DNA of 41,189 nucleotides from a virus. Each line of letters starts with the position of its first letter. Within the stretch, counting starts at the first letter, position 1. A program made the translations under genes and the position numbers. Below the pieces are notes generated by a model that had not been told where the DNA came from, searched no databases, and saw only the letters and a list, made by a program, of their open reading frames with translations. The stretch covers positions 1-41,189 of the IMG/VR virus record IMGVR_UViG_3300020172_002194; one strand, written 5' to 3'. Shown in pieces: positions 18,908-39,088 of the stretch.

Positions 18908-20887
18908 TTATCTTCCTGTTCGAAGTGCAACATTTGGTCTTGCCCCACCTCTCATAGAATTCCTATCTTTTTCGGCTTTAGCCACCATATCAGCAATTTT
19001 GTCAGAAACATTACTTGTTCTAAGTGCATCTAATACACTATTTTGTAAATCTTTAGGATTAACATTAATATTAACGGTAAGTTCATTATTTGTAGGGTTG
19101 GTCTGTTGTTGTGTATTAGTAGGTACGGTTGCAGGTTGTGTTCCAGGTAACGTTAATGGAGTTCCAGGCGATAATCTTGTTGGAGGAGTCACGGGTGTCG
19201 GTGCGGTAAATGTACCATTAGTTTGACCTGTCTGTGGGGTTATACCCGCTGAAGTAGTTAGTGAACCAACTTTTGAAATTAATTTATCATATTGTTCAGG
19301 AGTTAAAAATTCTTTAGGGGCGGCAATTAATTGTTGTAATGTAGTACCCATTCCAGTTTTAAACTCATTAGCAATATCTTTAAAGGCCTCATCTTTAGTT
19401 TTAGTACCTTCAAATAAACCTTTTAAATTTGAAGATAAAACACTTTCATATTGTCTAACATTTTCTCTTAAGGCATCATTTGTTAATACCCCTTTTTCAT
19501 TTCTTTCTAAACCAAGTGGTTTATTAAAACTTTCAACAACTTTAGTTTGTTTTTCTTCAGCAACTTGTAAAACTCTATCAATAGTATTTGACGCAGCAAT
19601 TTGTTGTGGGACCACACCCTTTCTAGCTTTAAGAGCGTTATCCATATTCCTCAAGTGACCATTTGCAATTTTTTGTAAATCAATAGCACTTTTGGCAGGT
19701 TCGTTCATTTTTTCAAGGTCTTTTCTATTTGACTCACTTAAATCACTAACCGCTTTAGTTACTGACCTTGTCATTTCATTACCTTGTTCATCTTTAACAG
19801 TTTCGTCAAAAGTAACAACATATGTCCCACCACTTAATTGGGCCATATTTGCCAACATTTGTTTATCTTTTTCGTTAGCAAAATCGGTTGGGAATCTAAT
19901 TTCTTTTAATTTTCTATCTAAATCACCCGCATTTAAAGCCATCTTAGCCATTTCCTCATTACTAAGACCCATTACCTTAGCCAATTCCCTCATTTGTCCT
20001 TGAGCACCAGGTAAAATTGACATTTTTTGATTTTTCTCGTCAAAATAAACTAAAGATTTTGTGGCTTCAATTATAGATTCTTGTAATTTGGCAGGGTCAT
20101 TTCTCGCCATATCCATTAACTTATATGGGTCAAGTAAAGATTGCACTTGTACACCTAACCTTTGGAAAGATGCTGCGGTTTCAATTGCCGCCTCAGGTTC
20201 AAATAACTTATCAGCAAACCCTAAGGTCTTACTCATATCAATTCTTAATCCCGCGGCTTGTGCTGCCATTTTAGCCATACCCTCAACACCATTCTGAAAA
20301 TTATATAAGGCTAACTTATCAATACTTTTACTTAATTGTGAGTATGTTGCAGACGCACTAACACCTACTTCTCTAGCGGTGTTTAAGACTTTAGTCATTT
20401 CACCACCTATGTTATATAAACCATAACCCGCATCTACAAACTTTCGAGTCATTTCTTCCGCAGATTGAGCAGAAGTTTTTGTACCGTCACTAACTAATTC
20501 ACCTACGGCAAATAACTCAGCATAAGCATCTTTTGATAAAATAACTTGAGTATCTAAAGCGGCGACGACACCTTTTTGGATGTCCATTACATTTTGAATA
20601 CCACCACCAAGTTCAGTAACACTTGGTATTGCTCCCGCAATAGCCTCTTTAATTGATTGGGATAAATCTCTGGTACCACCAAAAGTAGTTGCTAAACGAC
20701 CTACTTGGTCTTCCATTTTTTCAAAAGTAGTTAGAACAGATTCTAAACTAGTTTTTGATAATAAAATATTTGAATTAAAAACACCTAAAACATCTACGGC
20801 ACCTTTAAGGGTATCCCCTAGTTTAAAGGGGTCTTTGGTATTTTTACCTGTTTCATCCGCAGATGGTGTAGTTTGTTGAAATAACAT
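18908..20887 (-). CDS. 29: Tail tape-measure protein (gp29-like)
   Basis: A 659-aa mostly alpha-helical protein rich in Ala, Lys and Glu, with no transmembrane stretch. Position decides the call: it follows tail tube and the gp26-like chaperone and precedes the baseplate genes, exactly where tape-measure genes lie. Length is near T4 gp29 (590 aa), which predicts a T4-like tail of similar or slightly greater length. Repetitive helical segments include FEKMEDQVGRLATTFGG (about 56-72), long amphipathic helices to about 480 and a Pro/Thr-rich linker (about 545-600, TFTAPTPVTPP) followed by a short helical C-terminus. A TATTTATATAATAAA element is 21 nt upstream of the ATG. Confidence 0.8.
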   Translation of the reverse strand: MLFQQTTPSADETGKNTKDPFKLGDTLKGAVDVLGVFNSNILLSKTSLESVLTTFEKMEDQVGRLATTFGGTRDLSQSIKEAIAGAIPSVTELGGGIQNVMDIQKGVVAALDTQVILSKDAYAELFAVGELVSDGTKTSAQSAEEMTRKFVDAGYGLYNIGGEMTKVLNTAREVGVSASATYSQLSKSIDKLALYNFQNGVEGMAKMAAQAAGLRIDMSKTLGFADKLFEPEAAIETAASFQRLGVQVQSLLDPYKLMDMARNDPAKLQESIIEATKSLVYFDEKNQKMSILPGAQGQMRELAKVMGLSNEEMAKMALNAGDLDRKLKEIRFPTDFANEKDKQMLANMAQLSGGTYVVTFDETVKDEQGNEMTRSVTKAVSDLSESNRKDLEKMNEPAKSAIDLQKIANGHLRNMDNALKARKGVVPQQIAASNTIDRVLQVAEEKQTKVVESFNKPLGLERNEKGVLTNDALRENVRQYESVLSSNLKGLFEGTKTKDEAFKDIANEFKTGMGTTLQQLIAAPKEFLTPEQYDKLISKVGSLTTSAGITPQTGQTNGTFTAPTPVTPPTRLSPGTPLTLPGTQPATVPTNTQQQTNPTNNELTVNINVNPKDLQNSVLDALRTSNVSDKIADMVAKAEKDRNSMRGGARPNVALRTGR

Positions 20888-20922: not shown

Positions 20923-21102
20923 TTAGTTTTCCTCAGGATTTTTTTCCTTAACTAGTTGGTCAATAATATATCTTCGTAGATATATGGGCATATTAATAAA
21001 ATCTGTATACGAAACATTTAAATGTCTTGTACAGATAAAATATTCCCAAGATTGTACTTCTCTGTAATTAGAAGAAAGGGCGAAAAAACTCCACCCCAAA
21101 GC
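20923..21102 (-). CDS. Out-of-frame tail-chaperone extension, likely made by frameshift
   Basis: An open frame of 59 codons lies in the +1 frame relative to the end of the gp26-like gene and has no ATG before its conserved-looking core. It reads ALSSNYREVQSWEYFICTRH and then LNVSYTDFINMPIYLRRY, ending KEKNPEEN. The W-(F/Y)-C...NMP pattern is like the second halves of tail assembly chaperones. Only a TTG (21097-21099) could start it independently, and no ribosome site is seen. A run of six T then C in the overlap (21088-21082) lets tRNA-Phe slip +1 (or -2), giving a fused product of 247 zero-frame residues plus 52. Placement between tail tube and tape measure is the classical site of lambda G/GT-type frameshifts. 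Strong inference, untested. Confidence 0.65.
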   Translation of the reverse strand, partial: ALGWSFFALSSNYREVQSWEYFICTRHLNVSYTDFINMPIYLRRYIIDQLVKEKNPEEN

Positions 21103-21823
21103 TTACACCAACGGTGAGCTCTTTACCTGACGGGGCGTAAATTTTTCTTGTTAAGTCTAAAGAAGGTTCGTTTTCTTCAACAAATCTTCTGATATATTTT
21201 GCATCTGCAATAGGTAAAGATTCTATAACTTGTACAATGTGACCAGGGTCTCCATTACCGTCAACCTCAACAACCATTTTATTTAATTTCCAAGTTTGTT
21301 TTGGAGCTACTCTACCTACAGGATAAGTTTCTGCCATCTTATCCAATTCATTTAATTCACCATATGATAATGGTTTTAATTTTACACTTAAATTAGATTT
21401 TGGTAAAATTGTAGTAAAAGTACCATCTTCATTTGGTTGAACCTCTGTTTTTCTAATAAACAATTCTTCTAAACTAATTGTAGTTTCAAAAGATTTATTA
21501 GTTTCAGGGTCATTAAGAGTTAAAGTATAATCAGAACCAAAGGCAGTGTTTCTTAAAAATATTAAAATTGCTTGAATATCTCCTTGAAGTAATTCATCTG
21601 GTCTAATATCAGGTTCGTAAATTTTACTTCTTAATAATGACATAATAATACCGTCTTTCGGCATATCAGAACCTGCCAATAATAAATTTTCATCAGAAGC
21701 GGTTAAATAACCAACCTTTAATGACTTTTTCTTTGATTTATAAAATAATCCACCTGAAGGAAGTTTAACCACATCGTGTGGTAAACTAAAATTTTGTTGT
21801 GCGTATTGTTGTGTTGCGTCCAT
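21068..21823 (-). CDS. 26: Baseplate hub assembly/tail chaperone protein, gp26-like
   Basis: A 251-aa protein (T4 gp26 is 208 aa). The N-terminus has the gp26-like HDVVKLPSGGLFY (about 16-28), followed by LKVGYLTASDENLLL (about 35-49) and a central YTLTLNDPETNKSFETTI beta region. The C-terminal half (LKPLSYGELNELDKM, LPIADAKYIRRFVEE) is helical. The zero frame ends SFGVEFFRPFF; a second frame continues past the stop (see the extension entry). Located between tail tube and tape measure, it would assist hub assembly or coat the tape measure before tube polymerisation. Its ATG lies directly after the U-run of the tail tube terminator, so its supply may depend on readthrough. Confidence 0.8.
   Translation of the reverse strand: MDATQQYAQQNFSLPHDVVKLPSGGLFYKSKKKSLKVGYLTASDENLLLAGSDMPKDGIIMSLLRSKIYEPDIRPDELLQGDIQAILIFLRNTAFGSDYTLTLNDPETNKSFETTISLEELFIRKTEVQPNEDGTFTTILPKSNLSVKLKPLSYGELNELDKMAETYPVGRVAPKQTWKLNKMVVEVDGNGDPGHIVQVIESLPIADAKYIRRFVEENEPSLDLTRKIYAPSGKELTVGVSFGVEFFRPFF
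21082..21088 (-). other. Putative programmed frameshift site (TTTTTTC)
   Basis: Zero-frame codons are GAG TTT TTT CGC CCT TTC TTC TAA. Phe-tRNA on the second TTT can re-pair with TTC after a +1 slip (next codon GCC), or with TTT after a -2 slip. CGC following the site is likely a rare, slow codon in this AT-rich genome. The zero-frame stop is five codons after the second TTT. The -1 frame gives only a short peptide without the W-E-Y-F core. Confidence 0.6.
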
Positions 21824-21901: not shown

Positions 21902-22390
21902 TTAGTATACCAAGATACATCTATCCATACGAAGTGATGCGGTAATTTGTGCGATACCATCGTTAGAGTAAGCTAACTCACCAAAACTAACGTCAGTTAA
22001 GAAAGTTCCTTCTAAAATCCATTTCTCAACAACCACACCTGTAGGGTCTAACATCTCAAGGTCAATGTTTTTCTTGTAACCTGCAGCATAACCCATACGA
22101 CCTGTAACTGATTCTGCGTGTAGACGAACCCACTCCATAAGAGCTTGAGCCGCTGAAGGTCCAATTGGGTCTCTAAATTTAACACTAATTGGGTCCCAAG
22201 TAAATCTACCTGCAACATATGTTGACGTATTTAAGAATTGAATTTCAGTAGAATTAATTTTAATGTGTGGTCTAGAAGTTGATTCTACAAACCATTCGTT
22301 AATACCTAATGTAGATGGAAACCTAAGAATGAATCGGTTCATTCTTTTTGGTTCATACGGTATCGGCATTTTCATCAATAAATCAGCCAT
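21902..22390 (-). CDS. 19: Tail tube protein (gp19)
   Basis: At 162 aa it is nearly the exact size of T4 gp19 (163 aa). It shows the tube-protein pattern throughout: NRFILRFPSTLGINEWFVES near the start, FTWDPISVKFRDPIGPSAAQ in the middle, EWVRLHAESVTGRMGYAAGY and DLEMLDPTGVVVEKWILEG, then the conserved end ITASLRMDRCILVY. The protein polymerises into the inner tube around the tape measure. It is flanked by a strong terminator downstream and a 152-bp promoter-bearing gap upstream, so it is probably transcribed alone at high level. Leader is A-rich, no Shine-Dalgarno. Confidence 0.95.
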   Translation of the reverse strand: MADLLMKMPIPYEPKRMNRFILRFPSTLGINEWFVESTSRPHIKINSTEIQFLNTSTYVAGRFTWDPISVKFRDPIGPSAAQALMEWVRLHAESVTGRMGYAAGYKKNIDLEMLDPTGVVVEKWILEGTFLTDVSFGELAYSNDGIAQITASLRMDRCILVY

Positions 22391-23405: not shown

Positions 23406-26400
23406 TTAGATATTATCAAATGATGCTCCTGTTGGAGTAATTAAAAATTCGATATCGATAAATTCTAATGCTTTAGTTGGTTTAATATAAATTTTACCTA
23501 CTAATTGGTTTTTATCTAAGTCCTCAGTTGAAGACGAAACAGTTACACGGAAATCGTATAAACCTCTGTCTCTTCTGATAGCATCTAAGATAGGATTAAC
23601 CGCATCTAAGAAATCTTGTCTTACTTTTTCATCGTTTTGTTCGAATAACAATCTTACTGCTACTGCTGAAATCAACTTACGAGCTTGTAATAACAATCTT
23701 CTTACGTTAATTCTATCAAGAGCAGATTCTCTAACTTGTAAAGTTTTATTACCCCAAATTACAGTTCCTACGTCAGAGAATGTTGCAATTGGATTAATTC
23801 TACCAACATAAAGAGTGTCTCTATCTTCTTGAGTCAGTTTACGTCTTGCTTTGATTGCATTTACTAAACCTCTTGTATAACCCGCTGATGCGAACCAAGG
23901 GAATGCGATATTATCAGTTAACGCTAAGTTTCTTGTAACCTCAGCAGTTGCTGGAATATAAATCTGAGTGTTGTTAACAGTATCTCTTGTTAATACCCAA
24001 GGGTAGTAAGTTGCGGTGTAGTTTGAGTCGATTCCAGTGTTTTCTAAGTTATCAACTGCCTCAGTCGGATAAATAAAATCTTCTTGGTTAGTTGTTGTTG
24101 GTACAAACATATTAAAGTCAGGTGTTGTACAAATGTACAATGAATCTGCTCTGTCATTTTCTACCATATCAACCGCATCCTCGATTAGATTACTATTATT
24201 AACATAATCAATACCAGGTGTTACAAATACATTGATATTAACCGCTTCAGGGTTAACAAATGTTTTTTGTCCTAATAAGTAAGCGTAATAGTCAGTGTTT
24301 GCCCAATCATTTGAGTTATCACCAACTGTTATTCTTGAGAATAATCCGTCACCTGTCGCGTTTGTATATCTATCATCCGCACAAGCTCCTGCTAAATAAC
24401 CTGACTGACCTAATACGAATCTATCAGTATTTGTTCTTGATTCTCTGTAGATATCCCATCCGTCAAAACCACCTCCTACAAATAAAGTATATTTTCTTGA
24501 ATATAATCTGTAGTATGGACTATCAGTGTTTGTTGGTTCACTATTAAATGGTGCATCACCTACTGCAAATGCAGTTTGACCTGAAGTAGTATATCCATCA
24601 GGAATTGTTACAACTGTTGCTCCTGAGTCCATATGGAAACCTTTAGTAATGTACGGCCAATTTTGTAAAGCTGGTGTACACATAGTACCTAAATTTTGTT
24701 TACCAACATATTGGAAGAAATCTAAATCGTAACCAATTGATGTTGACAATCCTAAATAAGTACGTCTAACATTATCACCTGAAGATACTGCAGGGTCATC
24801 ATTACCTGATGAGTATCCAAACGGTGGGTTATAAATAACTTCACCAGGGTAGTCGTATTTAGTTTTATAGATTGGGAATGGAGAATTAACACCGTCATAC
24901 AATCTAAAATTATAACCTTCATAACCACAAGGTAATGAATCAATAGGTGCGTCTTCATTAATTTCAACCATAATGAATTTAGAATTTAATGAAAATTCAC
25001 CATCAGAAGAACCAATCTTTTTACCTACGAAATTATTTTGACCTGGGTCCATTGAACAATTTGTGAATTTTTCAATCACAACAGGTGCATCGTCAGTATC
25101 GTAAAAATCACGTACAATAACATCAAAGGTTGAGTTATTAAACGATATGTTTGCAATAGATATTTTTAATTGGTCGTTTGCACTATTACCGTCAGCAATA
25201 GATATAAATTTAAACAACTTATAAACTTGACTACCTCTTAATTCAGAAACTAACCAAGGTGATTCAGGTGTTTGATATTTTTCAACATAAAACGCAATAT
25301 TGTCTAATTCTTCACTTCTTGCAGAATCTAATTTAACTAAATTTTGTCTTAAACCTCTAATATAACCTTTCTTATAAGCCCAATTTAATAAACTTGAGAA
25401 TCTTTCTTCTAAGAATAAAGGAACTTCTGTTCTTGGTTTAGAGAAATTACCTAAACCAAATACTTTTGAAACGTATGTTGAGTCAGAACTTTGTAATGAA
25501 GTTTTGAATACATAAGACTTTCCATCATCATTAGTTACATTAACCGCAAATGGTGTAAAAGGATTTTTAGTTACCGCACTATAGCTACCGCTAAAATCTA
25601 AAGTAACCGCACTTAATTGACTAACTTCATAATCAGGTCCTTTTTGTGTTGAGTTATAATTTGAAATACCTCTTGAACGTAAAGTTGCAACTACTAAATT
25701 ATTGTAATCACTATAAGCTGAACCTGAATAATAATAAATCTTACCGTGTACTGTTCCTGAGAAACAATCAGGTTGAGTTGTTGTAGTTGTACTTACAGGA
25801 ATTGTTGTAGTTGTAGTATTACAAGGGTTTTGAGTTGTACTTGTTGTTGTTATAGGTGCAAATGTTGTTGTTGTAGTTGTTGTTTTTGGTAACATAGTTA
25901 AGTTTGAAACTACAGTCCAAAAAGAATAACCTGAATAACTATTACCTGAGTAGTTGTCAAATAAAGCGTAATACCAAGGGTCATTATATGATGATGTAAA
26001 ATCTGTGGTTGCTTCATTAACACTTGGTACTCCAAGTACGTTATTTGGGTTAGTAAACACAGGTGATAAAATATCATAATCGATATTATCAATACTACCC
26101 CAATAATTAATTGATGTTGCACTTAAACTTGGTTGTGCAAATACACCCAATAATTGGTCTTTAATATCTTGAGATAACGATGAAGTTCCACCGTCAAATT
26201 GAGTATATTCGTTTGTTAATATGTTTTGAATTTCAGCTGGGAAATTAGTTAAGAAAGTAATCGAACCATCTTGGTTACTACATCCCGTAAACTCAACGTC
26301 AAAACTAAGTGATACTCCAGTACAAGTTAAATCACAAGTATTGTCGTTATAGTTTGGTACACTAGAACAAACCTCGTCCATTTTTAGAGTTGTAGGGTCT

Positions 26401-26747
26401 AAGTTGGCAATAGTTTGAATTGACCAAGAAGGACCCGCATCATAACCTGATAAACCTAATACTCTTGTAACAAACAATTGATTTGATTGTTGAAGGTATG
26501 ATTTAGCGATGTAAGACGCCTCATATTTTGGGATTTGCGTGTTTATAAATTTCTCAGGGTTAGTTCCCCCGAAATAAGCTTGGAACTCATCATAGTTAGT
26601 AATGAAAATAGGTTCGAACGCAGGACCTCTTAAAGTCTCACCCACAATACCTAAAGTTGTTACCCCAACACTCTGAGCTACAAAGCTTAAGTCTCTTTCA
26701 GAAGTGTACACACCTGGTGACACGAATACTTTACTGTTTGTTGCCAT
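23406..26747 (-). CDS. 18: Tail sheath protein (gp18), very long form
   Basis: The N-terminus FVSPGVYTSERDLSFVAQSV and GIVGETLRGPAFEPIFI, and the C-terminal third (TRDTVNNTQIYIPATAEVTRN split by loops, FPWFASAGYTRGLV, KLTQEDRDTLYVGRINPI, WGNKTLQVRESALDRINVRR), are textbook contractile sheath. The C-terminal RVTVSSSTEDLDKNQLVGKI and FIDIEFLITP complete the polymerising domain. At 1113 aa it is far longer than T4 gp18 (659 aa). The excess is in the middle (about 110-800), which would form surface domains. It includes a Thr-repeat linker (about 285-330) and Cys-containing segments (CSSVPNYNDNTCDLTC, CNQDG region). A TATTTAT element lies 35 nt upstream and a hairpin follows the stop. Confidence 0.95.
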   Translation of the reverse strand: MATNSKVFVSPGVYTSERDLSFVAQSVGVTTLGIVGETLRGPAFEPIFITNYDEFQAYFGGTNPEKFINTQIPKYEASYIAKSYLQQSNQLFVTRVLGLSGYDAGPSWSIQTIANLDPTTLKMDEVCSSVPNYNDNTCDLTCTGVSLSFDVEFTGCSNQDGSITFLTNFPAEIQNILTNEYTQFDGGTSSLSQDIKDQLLGVFAQPSLSATSINYWGSIDNIDYDILSPVFTNPNNVLGVPSVNEATTDFTSSYNDPWYYALFDNYSGNSYSGYSFWTVVSNLTMLPKTTTTTTTFAPITTTSTTQNPCNTTTTTIPVSTTTTTQPDCFSGTVHGKIYYYSGSAYSDYNNLVVATLRSRGISNYNSTQKGPDYEVSQLSAVTLDFSGSYSAVTKNPFTPFAVNVTNDDGKSYVFKTSLQSSDSTYVSKVFGLGNFSKPRTEVPLFLEERFSSLLNWAYKKGYIRGLRQNLVKLDSARSEELDNIAFYVEKYQTPESPWLVSELRGSQVYKLFKFISIADGNSANDQLKISIANISFNNSTFDVIVRDFYDTDDAPVVIEKFTNCSMDPGQNNFVGKKIGSSDGEFSLNSKFIMVEINEDAPIDSLPCGYEGYNFRLYDGVNSPFPIYKTKYDYPGEVIYNPPFGYSSGNDDPAVSSGDNVRRTYLGLSTSIGYDLDFFQYVGKQNLGTMCTPALQNWPYITKGFHMDSGATVVTIPDGYTTSGQTAFAVGDAPFNSEPTNTDSPYYRLYSRKYTLFVGGGFDGWDIYRESRTNTDRFVLGQSGYLAGACADDRYTNATGDGLFSRITVGDNSNDWANTDYYAYLLGQKTFVNPEAVNINVFVTPGIDYVNNSNLIEDAVDMVENDRADSLYICTTPDFNMFVPTTTNQEDFIYPTEAVDNLENTGIDSNYTATYYPWVLTRDTVNNTQIYIPATAEVTRNLALTDNIAFPWFASAGYTRGLVNAIKARRKLTQEDRDTLYVGRINPIATFSDVGTVIWGNKTLQVRESALDRINVRRLLLQARKLISAVAVRLLFEQNDEKVRQDFLDAVNPILDAIRRDRGLYDFRVTVSSSTEDLDKNQLVGKIYIKPTKALEFIDIEFLITPTGASFDNI
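25755..25890 (-). repeat. Thr-codon trinucleotide repeat tract in sheath gene
   Basis: Tandem ACA/ACT-type codons (read as GTT/AGT on the plus strand) encode three or more runs of 4-8 Thr separated by Pro/Asn/Cys segments, such as TTTTTTTFAPITTTSTTQNP. The unit length is three bases, so slippage changes linker length without breaking the frame. Shorter similar tracts occur in the hub (about 7905-7935) and the 1647-aa protein (about 15835-15900). Confidence 0.75.
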
Positions 26748-31009: not shown

Positions 31010-32677
31010 ATGAAAAATCTAGTAAATAAGATTGAAACGTTAGAAGAGGAAGTTCAAAAAAATGAAAAAGACTTCGCAAAAAAATTCTTCATCAACGAAA
31101 TGAAAAAAATAGGTATTGAAAAATTACCTTACTCGTATAGTTCCCTTAAAAGATTTATAGACCCCGAAACAATGGATGTCCATTATAATAAACATTATAA
31201 AGGATACGTAGAAAAATTAAATTTAGCTTTAGATAAGAAAAAATTCGGGGATTTAGATTTAGAACAGATTGTTAAAACAATAAGTAGATTTAATAGTACG
31301 GTTAGAAATAACGCAGGTGGGGCCTATAACCACGCATTATTTTGGAAAATGTTATCTCCAAGAACTCAAAAACCAAAAGGGTTAATTTTAAAACGTATTG
31401 AAAAAGAATATGAAACTTTTGGTAATTTTAAAAAGAAGTTTGAAGAAATTGCCAAAGAAAGATTTGGGTCTGGTTGGGTTTGGTTAGTTGTAACAAAAAC
31501 TAATAATCTAAAAATAATGTCAACCCCAAATCAAGACAACCCGTTAATGAACGATATTAAAAACGGTGGTTACCCGATTTTAGGATTAGATTTATGGGAA
31601 CACGCATATTATCTAAAATATCGAAATAAAAGAGATGAATATATCAAAAACTTTTGGGACGCGGTTAATTGGGATTTTGTTGAGAAGTTGTACAAAATGA
31701 AAATTGAAACTCGTATTGACGAGGATATTGTGATGCAACAACTTATGAACGCATCAAATAAAGATATTATTACAGAACAAGAGGCTAAATCTCAAAGTTG
31801 TTCTCACGGAGAAGAAATTAAGTTTAAACAATTATTATTCCCTTCTTCAGATTTAAAACAAAGAACAACTCTATATTCAAGATTTAAACAAGACTATGTT
31901 AAAGGATGGATGGATATTTTAAAAAAATCTTACCCTGAAAATTGGAAAGAAAAAAATTCATTGTTTGTAGGTCACGAATCTGGATTATATAACAAAGAAA
32001 ATGTTAGGTCATTATTAATGAATTTAACCTCATCATATTCCGCTTTTTGTATTATTCATAAAGATGTTAACCAATATTTAACTCAGAATAATCAATCCCC
32101 TATTGAATATACTAATGACCCAAAACATAATTTAAATGAATTAAGAAGATTTTTTTCTATTTTAGACGGAATTCGTTCCATCATTTTTAACAGAGAAAAA
32201 CAATCAAACACTTTAAAACAAATCGGGGGTATTCTTAAAAAGACCGATTGTCTTGGTAAAAGAAACGAAGACGCCGCTTGTAAGATAATTAATCAAAACT
32301 TAGGAGATGGTTCTTGTAAAATAGAATCAGGGGCTGGTCACTCTAATGATATGTTATCAGGTATCGACGCAACTTTAAATTTGGAAGGTAAAAATTTAAC
32401 CGCACAAATAAAACCTTATAAAACTATTGTAGTGTCTGATAACTTTATTGCAATACAAGGTTCATCAAGTACACAAGAATATAAAAAAGTAGACACCATT
32501 ATTTTTGTTAATGTTAAATCATTGTCTGTAAAAATATTTAAAACCAATAATATTAAAATTGAGAAAGGTAATTTTTTAATTCCAAAAGAAAATGAAATTA
32601 TGTCAATTGTTGGGACAGGTGAAATTGAATTAATTGATTGTAACAAATATTTATCAGAAAACGCAATATGGGAATAA
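31010..32677 (+). CDS. Fe/Mn superoxide dismutase fused to a PD-(D/E)XK nuclease-like domain
   Basis: A 555-aa two-domain protein. Residues about 38-230 are a complete Fe/Mn superoxide dismutase: LPYSYSSLKRFIDPETMDVH with H58, NNAGGAYNHALFW with H108, GSGWVWLV, and DLWEHAYYL with D194 and H198, the four metal ligands. This would disproportionate superoxide. A linker with IITEQE (253-258) leads to residues about 265-555. This part holds NEDAACKIINQN (E420), GAGHSNDMLSGIDATL (D453) and LTAQIKPY (Q466, K468), the pattern of a restriction-type PD-(D/E)XK fold in which E is replaced by Q. I cannot tell whether that half is active. Reading frame is continuous. Its last bases overlap gp13 by 10 bp, so it is coupled to a neck gene. 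A bacterial-type SOD of normal length is about 200 aa. Confidence 0.88.
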   Translation: MKNLVNKIETLEEEVQKNEKDFAKKFFINEMKKIGIEKLPYSYSSLKRFIDPETMDVHYNKHYKGYVEKLNLALDKKKFGDLDLEQIVKTISRFNSTVRNNAGGAYNHALFWKMLSPRTQKPKGLILKRIEKEYETFGNFKKKFEEIAKERFGSGWVWLVVTKTNNLKIMSTPNQDNPLMNDIKNGGYPILGLDLWEHAYYLKYRNKRDEYIKNFWDAVNWDFVEKLYKMKIETRIDEDIVMQQLMNASNKDIITEQEAKSQSCSHGEEIKFKQLLFPSSDLKQRTTLYSRFKQDYVKGWMDILKKSYPENWKEKNSLFVGHESGLYNKENVRSLLMNLTSSYSAFCIIHKDVNQYLTQNNQSPIEYTNDPKHNLNELRRFFSILDGIRSIIFNREKQSNTLKQIGGILKKTDCLGKRNEDAACKIINQNLGDGSCKIESGAGHSNDMLSGIDATLNLEGKNLTAQIKPYKTIVVSDNFIAIQGSSSTQEYKKVDTIIFVNVKSLSVKIFKTNNIKIEKGNFLIPKENEIMSIVGTGEIELIDCNKYLSENAIWE

Positions 32678-37384: not shown

Positions 37385-39088
37385 TCAAACAATTTGTGTC
37401 CAATCAAATTCGTTAAACCAATTATACGAATGATATATTTTTAGATTATCTAAATTATAAAACTCAAAAGAACCTGAATACTCACTATTAAAATCAATTT
37501 GTCTTTTAATATTATTTTCTTCAATTCTAAATGAATGACTTAGGTTTTCAATATTAAGCTTGGTAAAATCCCAAGTGTATTTTAAAATATACAATTCTCC
37601 TTCTTTGAAAATCCTAAAATTTAAAACCGCATCTTTTTCTTTAAATGTTACAGGAATTAATGATTCTTTAACTAAAACACCTTTTGTCTGATTAGATAAC
37701 GATTCTATATAACTTTTAATCGAAACATCATTAGAACCTTCTCCAACAAAATGACATATAAAATTTTGTTTTTTATGAGAAATTCTAAATTTATTTAAAA
37801 TTTCACTATTAACTATTTTATAATCTTTATCATTTGATTTAGAAAGAATTATATGTATTGGACCTTGTTCAAACGGCCAATAATCATATGTAAACTGATG
37901 ATTGTTAATTTCTTGGTGAGAAAATTCAAACCCTCTATTTGTATTACTCTTAGTTTCCCACACATTATTTAAAAAATCTATAGACCATTTATCATTTTTT
38001 AATATAAAAACACCTGTGTTAATAATCCTTAGGTTGTGTAATTCTAAATAATCTAAATTTGGGTTTAAAGTTTTTGTGTTTCTATAGTTATCCTCGGAAG
38101 CAATAATTAATTTAATATCGGGATTAGTGTTACAAATAAAATCAAATCTAATTTCAGGGTTAGTTATGTAAGCATCATTATCTACCCAAACAACGTAATC
38201 GTATAAATTAGACTCTAAAACTTCTTTTAAAATTATTATTTTATCCCAACCAGGATGTCTATTACTTAATCTACCTTTATGATATTTGAAATAGTAATTG
38301 TGTTTTTTAGAATAATCTTCTTTATTAGGAATAGTAATGTTAGCAACATTAGTTATATTTTCTGTAAAATGAGAAACTAAACAAATTTTCAACTTCTTAA
38401 GTTCAATTAATTTAGTGGTTTCTGTTTCATCAATTCCTAACTTATCATTAATCTTTTTTACCGAAGTAATAAAGTTTTCTAAATGTGATTCTGATTGTCT
38501 ACTACCCATATAGTGAATAATAAAAGTTTTATCATTCGATGAATTTGGATGTGAGTTAAATTCTGTAGATGGAAATATTTTAAATTTTTTAGTATTCTCT
38601 CTAGTTAAGATTTCACACATTTTACCTTGTTCGTGAGGAAAACCATCATAAGAGTGTTTTTCTAATTTATCTAAACTGTAGTTAGGAACACTATTCCACA
38701 CTTTATTTAATAAACTTGAAGACCATTCGGTATTTTTAAAAATCATCACACCTGTGTTTACCATAAGATGAGTTACTCCTTCGGCATAACAAACATCGCT
38801 ACAGAATAACGCGTCAAAATCAGTATTGTCTGAAATTAATTTATTTAATGAGATTTCAAAATTATTAAATACGGTGTCACTATCCATCCATATTACATAA
38901 TCATATTCAGGTAATGTTTGAATTAAACATTGGATTTTATCCCACTGAGCGTGTCTCTCAGACGCTCTACCAAAATAAAATCTGTAATCAATACCATATT
39001 TTTCACAATATTTTTTTTTATTTAACGTTGATAGTCTTGACTCCGTTTCAATTTCTTCTGTGAATAAACTAACTACACAAATTTTCAT
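37385..39088 (-). CDS. Tandem-domain glycosyltransferase (two GT34-like domains plus beta C-terminus)
   Basis: A 567-aa protein containing the same domain twice. Copy 1 (about 1-215) starts MKICVVSLFTEE and has HAQWDKIQCLIQTLPEYDYV and WMDSDTVF with DSD at 69-71. Copy 2 (about 232-470) starts LKICLVSHFTEN and has HPGWDKIIILKEVL and WVDNDAYI with DND at 302-304. Both have the later NTGV(M/F)I(F/L)K block and an EQG segment near a His, all as in GT34 galactosyl/xylosyl-type (GMA12/MNN10) retaining transferases. The last 100 residues look like a separate beta domain. Each half keeps its metal-binding DxD, so two sugars could be added. It ends the transferase group, 3 bp after the GT60-type gene. 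Confidence 0.85.
   Translation of the reverse strand: MKICVVSLFTEEIETESRLSTLNKKKYCEKYGIDYRFYFGRASERHAQWDKIQCLIQTLPEYDYVIWMDSDTVFNNFEISLNKLISDNTDFDALFCSDVCYAEGVTHLMVNTGVMIFKNTEWSSSLLNKVWNSVPNYSLDKLEKHSYDGFPHEQGKMCEILTRENTKKFKIFPSTEFNSHPNSSNDKTFIIHYMGSRQSESHLENFITSVKKINDKLGIDETETTKLIELKKLKICLVSHFTENITNVANITIPNKEDYSKKHNYYFKYHKGRLSNRHPGWDKIIILKEVLESNLYDYVVWVDNDAYITNPEIRFDFICNTNPDIKLIIASEDNYRNTKTLNPNLDYLELHNLRIINTGVFILKNDKWSIDFLNNVWETKSNTNRGFEFSHQEINNHQFTYDYWPFEQGPIHIILSKSNDKDYKIVNSEILNKFRISHKKQNFICHFVGEGSNDVSIKSYIESLSNQTKGVLVKESLIPVTFKEKDAVLNFRIFKEGELYILKYTWDFTKLNIENLSHSFRIEENNIKRQIDFNSEYSGSFEFYNLDNLKIYHSYNWFNEFDWTQIV

Follow-up and report, generated by a model that had tools for sequence, protein, structure and literature searches.

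Tail assembly chaperones that are produced by frameshifting are a known kind of phage protein, and the shift is usually in the −1 direction. In phage lambda, G and GT are a short and a long chaperone from one gene, placed between the tail tube and tape measure genes, with a −1 shift close to where the first frame ends (PMC5009743); other −1 cases are given in PMC5009743 and PMC12846349. The hub assembly chaperones of T4 are gp26 and gp51, of which gp51 is missing from the particle (PMC3004832). They are encoded by two divergent separate genes, both of which match PF12322, and there is no +1 extension after gp26. Slippage of +1 in the P site is found in the RF2 gene (prfB), where the slow A-site codon is the stop UGA and an SD-like element stands three bases 5′ of the P-site codon (AGGAGG-UAU-CUU-UGA); this site is common in Bacteroidia, whose ribosomes otherwise ignore SD sequences (PMC8710568). 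UUU followed by a codon that begins with a pyrimidine (UUU-Ynn) is described as particularly liable to shift +1 (Atkins et al. 2016, PMC5009743), and a +1 slip on UUU before a CGN codon occurs in influenza A PA-X (UCC_UUU_CGU; PMC5009743).

The gene described here lies in a stretch of viral DNA of 41,189 nucleotides, referred to below as the window (Table 1). The layout resembles lambda G/GT: a single gene, flanked by those for tail tube and tape measure, would yield a short and a long chaperone through a shift shortly before the zero frame ends. In contrast to lambda, the protein belongs to the T4 gp26 type, and the shift would go +1, at a UUU-C whose C opens a very rare Arg codon. It is likely, with a probability of about 0.88, that tRNA-Phe slips from UUU to UUC before the rare CGC or CGG codon and that this yields the long form, TAC-NC. 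The majority of ribosomes would terminate at TAA and give TAC-N, and a minority would pause while UUU is paired with peptidyl-tRNA-Phe and the A site presents CGC, which is very rare (relatives mostly have CGG there); the tRNA would then move one base forward, and translation would resume at GCC CTT TCT TCT to produce a TAC-NC of ~299 aa. By analogy with lambda G/GT, TAC-N may serve as a coat for the tape measure protein, and TAC-NC may use its additional domain to recruit tail tube subunits. A P-site +1 slip, a slow A-site codon and an SD-like element three bases 5′ would be shared with RF2, although the A-site codon here is a very rare sense codon and not the stop UGA, and autoregulation is not implied. 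In the case of PA-X only the sites are alike, since the gene is unrelated and the system eukaryotic.

Table 1. Position of the chaperone gene, its putative shift signals and its neighbours in the window
Feature	Position	Strand	Family match
Zero-frame gene, gp26-like tail assembly chaperone, short form (TAC-N), 251 aa	21068..21823	(-)	PF12322, phrog_150
+1-frame extension, 52 codons + stop, predicted C-terminal domain of the long form (TAC-NC)	20923..21081	(-)	
Putative shift site TTT TTT CGC; P-site UUU -> UUC, A-site CGC	21080..21088	(-)	
SD-like GGGGTGGAG, ends 3 nt 5′ of the P-site codon; possible stimulator	21089..21097	(-)	
Zero-frame stop TAA ending TAC-N	21068..21070	(-)	
Tail tube protein, upstream neighbour	21902..22390	(-)	phrog_4542 1.5e-25
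Downstream neighbour, 659 aa, tape-measure candidate by position	18908..20887	(-)	

In the window the zero frame ends with GGG GTG GAG TTT TTT CGC CCT TTC TTC TAA, with the T6 run at 21083-21088 and the following C at 21082 on the minus strand, and the +1 frame reads ALSSNYREVQSWEYFICTRHLNVSYTDFINMPIYLRRYIIDQLVKEKNPEEN for 52 codons to a stop at 20923-20925. An earlier note on this DNA had pointed out the 52-residue continuation in another frame; its sequence and coordinates hold, as does the absence of an ATG from the extension, and its sole start-like codon is a TTG inside the overlap. Viral contigs were scanned for relatives, and of the 28 loci obtained, 27 cover the end of the gene (67-100% amino acid identity); statistics for this close group were computed on 17 distinct sequences, and the comparison as a whole took in ~90 other phage sequences. 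Alignment of relatives had been proposed as a check on the persistence of the second frame, and it is present in every close relative: all 27 loci keep a zero-frame FG(V/A)EFFRPFF-stop together with an open +1 extension, the zero-frame stop position being occupied by TAA or TGA throughout. Among the 17 distinct sequences, the +1 frame is free of stops over the extension except for one ragged C-terminal end, and the remaining two frames have 1-7 stops each. The dN/dS of the extension is about 0.13, with 1491/844/2618 pairwise differences at the three codon positions. In the zero frame, synonymous divergence is 0.083 in the last six codons compared with 0.386 in the rest of the gene, a dip that is the lowest among 97 windows (permutation P 2e-5). 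Comparative sequence evidence thus confirms the +1 extension as an evolved, conserved, protein-coding feature rather than a chance one; both frames are under protein-level selection and the second has no conserved independent start.

An assembly indel or a pseudogene, meaning one ORF that is broken by an error, has next to no probability. Nothing speaks for it except the frame change itself, and the same change is found in dozens of independent contigs and in seven deposited phage records with a zero-frame stop, with selection acting on both frames; no relative with one continuous frame was found. One contig of another record carries 956 identical bases over the gene and what follows. The sequencing error that the earlier note considered is therefore excluded by many independent contigs. 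Another explanation, which we regard as highly improbable, makes the extension a small gene in its own right that starts from a weak codon (TTG or other), maybe by coupling to termination of the first gene. The +1-frame TTG upstream of the shift site in the window is consistent with this, and so is the homologous domain in two distant loci (L128 and L134), which is a separate ORF with its own ATG. However, no ATG is conserved within the close group, and in two relatives (L007 and L022) a +1-frame TAG stands two codons after the TTG and three codons 5′ of the shift site. Synonymous constraint also falls on the overlap and on the P-site TTT, and a separate start would require neither UUU-CGG nor its rare codon. 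The TAG in these two relatives means that the frames can be joined only between GAG and the zero-frame stop, which confines the join to GAG-TTT-TTT-CGG-CCT-TTC-TTC-TRA, or about eight codons.

Within this segment the P-site TTT is invariant (17/17), the preceding Phe codon is TTT in 13 sequences and TTC in 4, and the A-site codon is CGG in 16/17, the window having CGC. A P-site UUU that is followed by a pyrimidine and a slow A-site codon, as in UUU-Ynn sites, is thus found in 17/17 close sequences as TTT-CGG/CGC. With no CGG and three CGC among 12,573 window codons, these are the rarest codons of the window, rarity being judged here from the codons of the phage, and for the window group only. 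An in-frame TTT-CGN has a single occurrence in the window, at the shift site, and in 19/26 relatives CGG is found once within the ORFs of the fetched stretch, again at the shift site. AGG is used 33 times in the window, yet never at this site, where it would preserve both the Arg and the +1 Gly but abolish re-pairing on UUC; its avoidance fits a requirement for a pyrimidine after UUU. The +1 slip of tRNA-Phe from TTT to TTC beside CGC that the earlier note suggested is favoured by these data, and the rarity of the codon strengthens the case, with the correction that most relatives have CGG.

The same note had offered −2 slippage as an alternative, in which UUU re-pairs two bases back in the T6 run and gives the identical frame with one extra Phe. 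In the window, T6 would permit tRNA-Phe to re-pair at −2, but we regard this explanation as very unlikely. In five loci from two relative groups (L008/L010/L011 and L023/L025), TTC TTT C stands in place of T6C, and in GAG TTC TTT CGG a −2 move would set tRNA-Phe on UCU, where it is unable to re-pair, while the +1 move from UUU to UUC is workable in all relatives. The more distant LR756508-like phages, described below, also have TTC TTT TGG. These variants speak against a requirement for T6, as they do against both −2 and transcriptional slippage; the latter was rejected, the run being only T6 and interrupted (TTCTTT) in two relative groups. What remains of the T6C site as proposed is that the join is always at TTT-C; the T6 itself is not conserved. 

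It is probable that the SD-like GGGGUGGAG upstream of the site favours this slippage, as in the RF2 gene. Its 3′ end is three bases from the P-site codon, which is the spacing of the prfB site. The Gly codon before the site is GGG in 17/17, compared with at most 3/17 at eight other invariant Gly columns, and the Glu codon is GAG in 16/17; some relatives have a weaker version of the element (GAA in L015). These GGG and GAG codons are retained against codon bias despite few SD-led gene starts, a 4-base SD match being found at just 2/23 gene starts in the window. We infer a Bacteroidota host for this phage. Codons −19 and −17 from the end of the gp26-like gene, ~40 nt 5′ of the shift site, are also kept against codon bias, as GGA (16/17) and GAG (17/17). 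A stimulatory RNA hairpin ~47 nt downstream (20970-21079) was considered and not counted. Most of the sequences that were folded give a z of −2.4 to −3, but the hairpin is absent in L026, its covariation is hardly above shuffles, and it lies within conserved coding sequence of the extension, far from the shift site.

The zero-frame gene matches PF12322 T4_baseplate (gp26/gp51; E 1.4e-8, 35.1 bits against a cut-off of 24.5) and phrog_150 (1.1e-11). A sequence search for solved relatives of the two parts found none (best E 0.045 and 0.61). Each of the two frames was modelled as a chain of its own. The AlphaFold2 model of the zero frame has a pLDDT of 86.7 and a pTM of 0.82, and the best of 989 PDB chains is the HK97 tail assembly chaperone 2OB9 (Z 6.1, 79 residues, rmsd 3.3), followed by YqbN 3KLU (Z 5.9), both Z values being middling and below 8. 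Its matches in a viral structure library include T4-like hub assembly proteins. The extension is modelled as three helices (pLDDT 83.9), for which Foldseek found no PDB match at E <= 0.001. Searched alone against PHROG (window group), the extension had no match; as a profile it resembles the gp51 C-terminus and phrog_634-type cyanophage small ORFs (E 3.8e-5, probability 71%). PF12322 is matched once in the window and once in each of seven related records (65-192 kb), as would be expected if a single gene gives both products; no second PF12322 gene was found in these eight, with the limit that the records may be incomplete and that a very divergent copy could be missed. The gene stands between tail tube and tape measure, the latter being assigned by position in the window: the downstream neighbour has no family match of its own among PF and PHROG profiles, and a tape measure gene is annotated at the corresponding place in Flavobacterium phage immuto and Listeria phage LIS04. 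The tail chaperone role given in the earlier note is thus supported by position and synteny, by PF12322/phrog_150, by the fold matches to tail chaperones at middling Z and by the gp51-like extension, and the gene would encode a tail assembly chaperone pair, TAC-N/TAC-NC.

Outside the close group, loci like that of Flavobacterium phage immuto and LR756508-like loci contributed 69 distinct junctions, and 66 of these have a long +1 extension of ~60-100 codons. The +1 sites are TTT CTT TGG CCT (27), TTT TTT TGG CCT (26), TTC TTT TGG CCT (9), TTT CTA TGG CCT (3) and TTT CTT TAC CCT (1), so that the 66 junctions in this second group are also of the UUU-Ynn type (TTT-CTT/CTA/TTT/TGG). A +1 extension is also present in seven deposited phage records; it is seen in phages of Streptococcus, Listeria, Streptomyces, Microcystis, Flavobacterium and Pseudomonas and in one uncultured 484-kb phage, with a less clear slip codon in the Listeria and Pseudomonas phages. 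Another set of phages has the homologous gene followed by a similar small domain in the −1 frame, near TTT-TTC: the cyanophages P-TIM68, syn9 and Sf-FS3 as well as ValKK3 (Vibrio), Mendera (Stenotrophomonas) and IC12 (Rhizobium). Here TTT TTC immediately precedes the stop and, in contrast to the window, the site would be T_TTT_TTC (IC12 aside), sometimes with an ATG of its own for the second frame. In L128 and L134 the homologous extension is a separate ATG ORF right after the zero-frame stop, which makes a third arrangement besides +1 and −1. The statement that such a shift is not standard for T4 gp26 is correct for T4 itself, where there is no second frame, but relatives carry the domain in +1 or −1. 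We lean towards the view that gp26-type chaperones have a homologous site that is used by group as +1 (UUU-Ynn), as −1 (U_UUU_UUC) or as separate genes, the direction having been switched with both products kept. The +1 variant of the window group would combine a genome-avoided codon with an RF2-like internal SD.

The literature searched describes no conserved UUU-Ynn +1 site for gp26-type chaperones, although priority is uncertain, since some of these points may have been made in a 2022 paper on the tail chaperones of T4-like phages (Vladimirov, Gautam and Davidson, Virology 566:9-15). In no examined isolate record with a +1 extension does the annotation fuse the two frames, and the long chaperone of these phages is missed by routine annotation. 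A large T4-related group would keep two apparent products through one UUU-C +1 site, and this arrangement lends support to gp26 being the short chaperone and gp51 the long one. The site would amount to a minimal, naturally occurring +1 shift on a sense codon that is almost absent from the window, in a phage with SD rare on its genes, and so allows a direct test of what codon hunger and rRNA pairing contribute to +1 shifting.

Some other genes of the window are worth noting. A very long tail sheath of 1113 aa is encoded at 23406-26747 (-), where a Thr-rich insert separates the N-terminal part from the conserved C-terminal domains. A phage gene of 555 aa at 31010-32677 (+) has an Fe/Mn superoxide dismutase as its first 226 residues (PF02777 1.2e-38, PF00081 5.6e-22), the other ~320 residues being without a family match, and a phage protein at 37385-39088 (-) has two galactosyltransferase GT34 matches (PF05637 3.9e-24).
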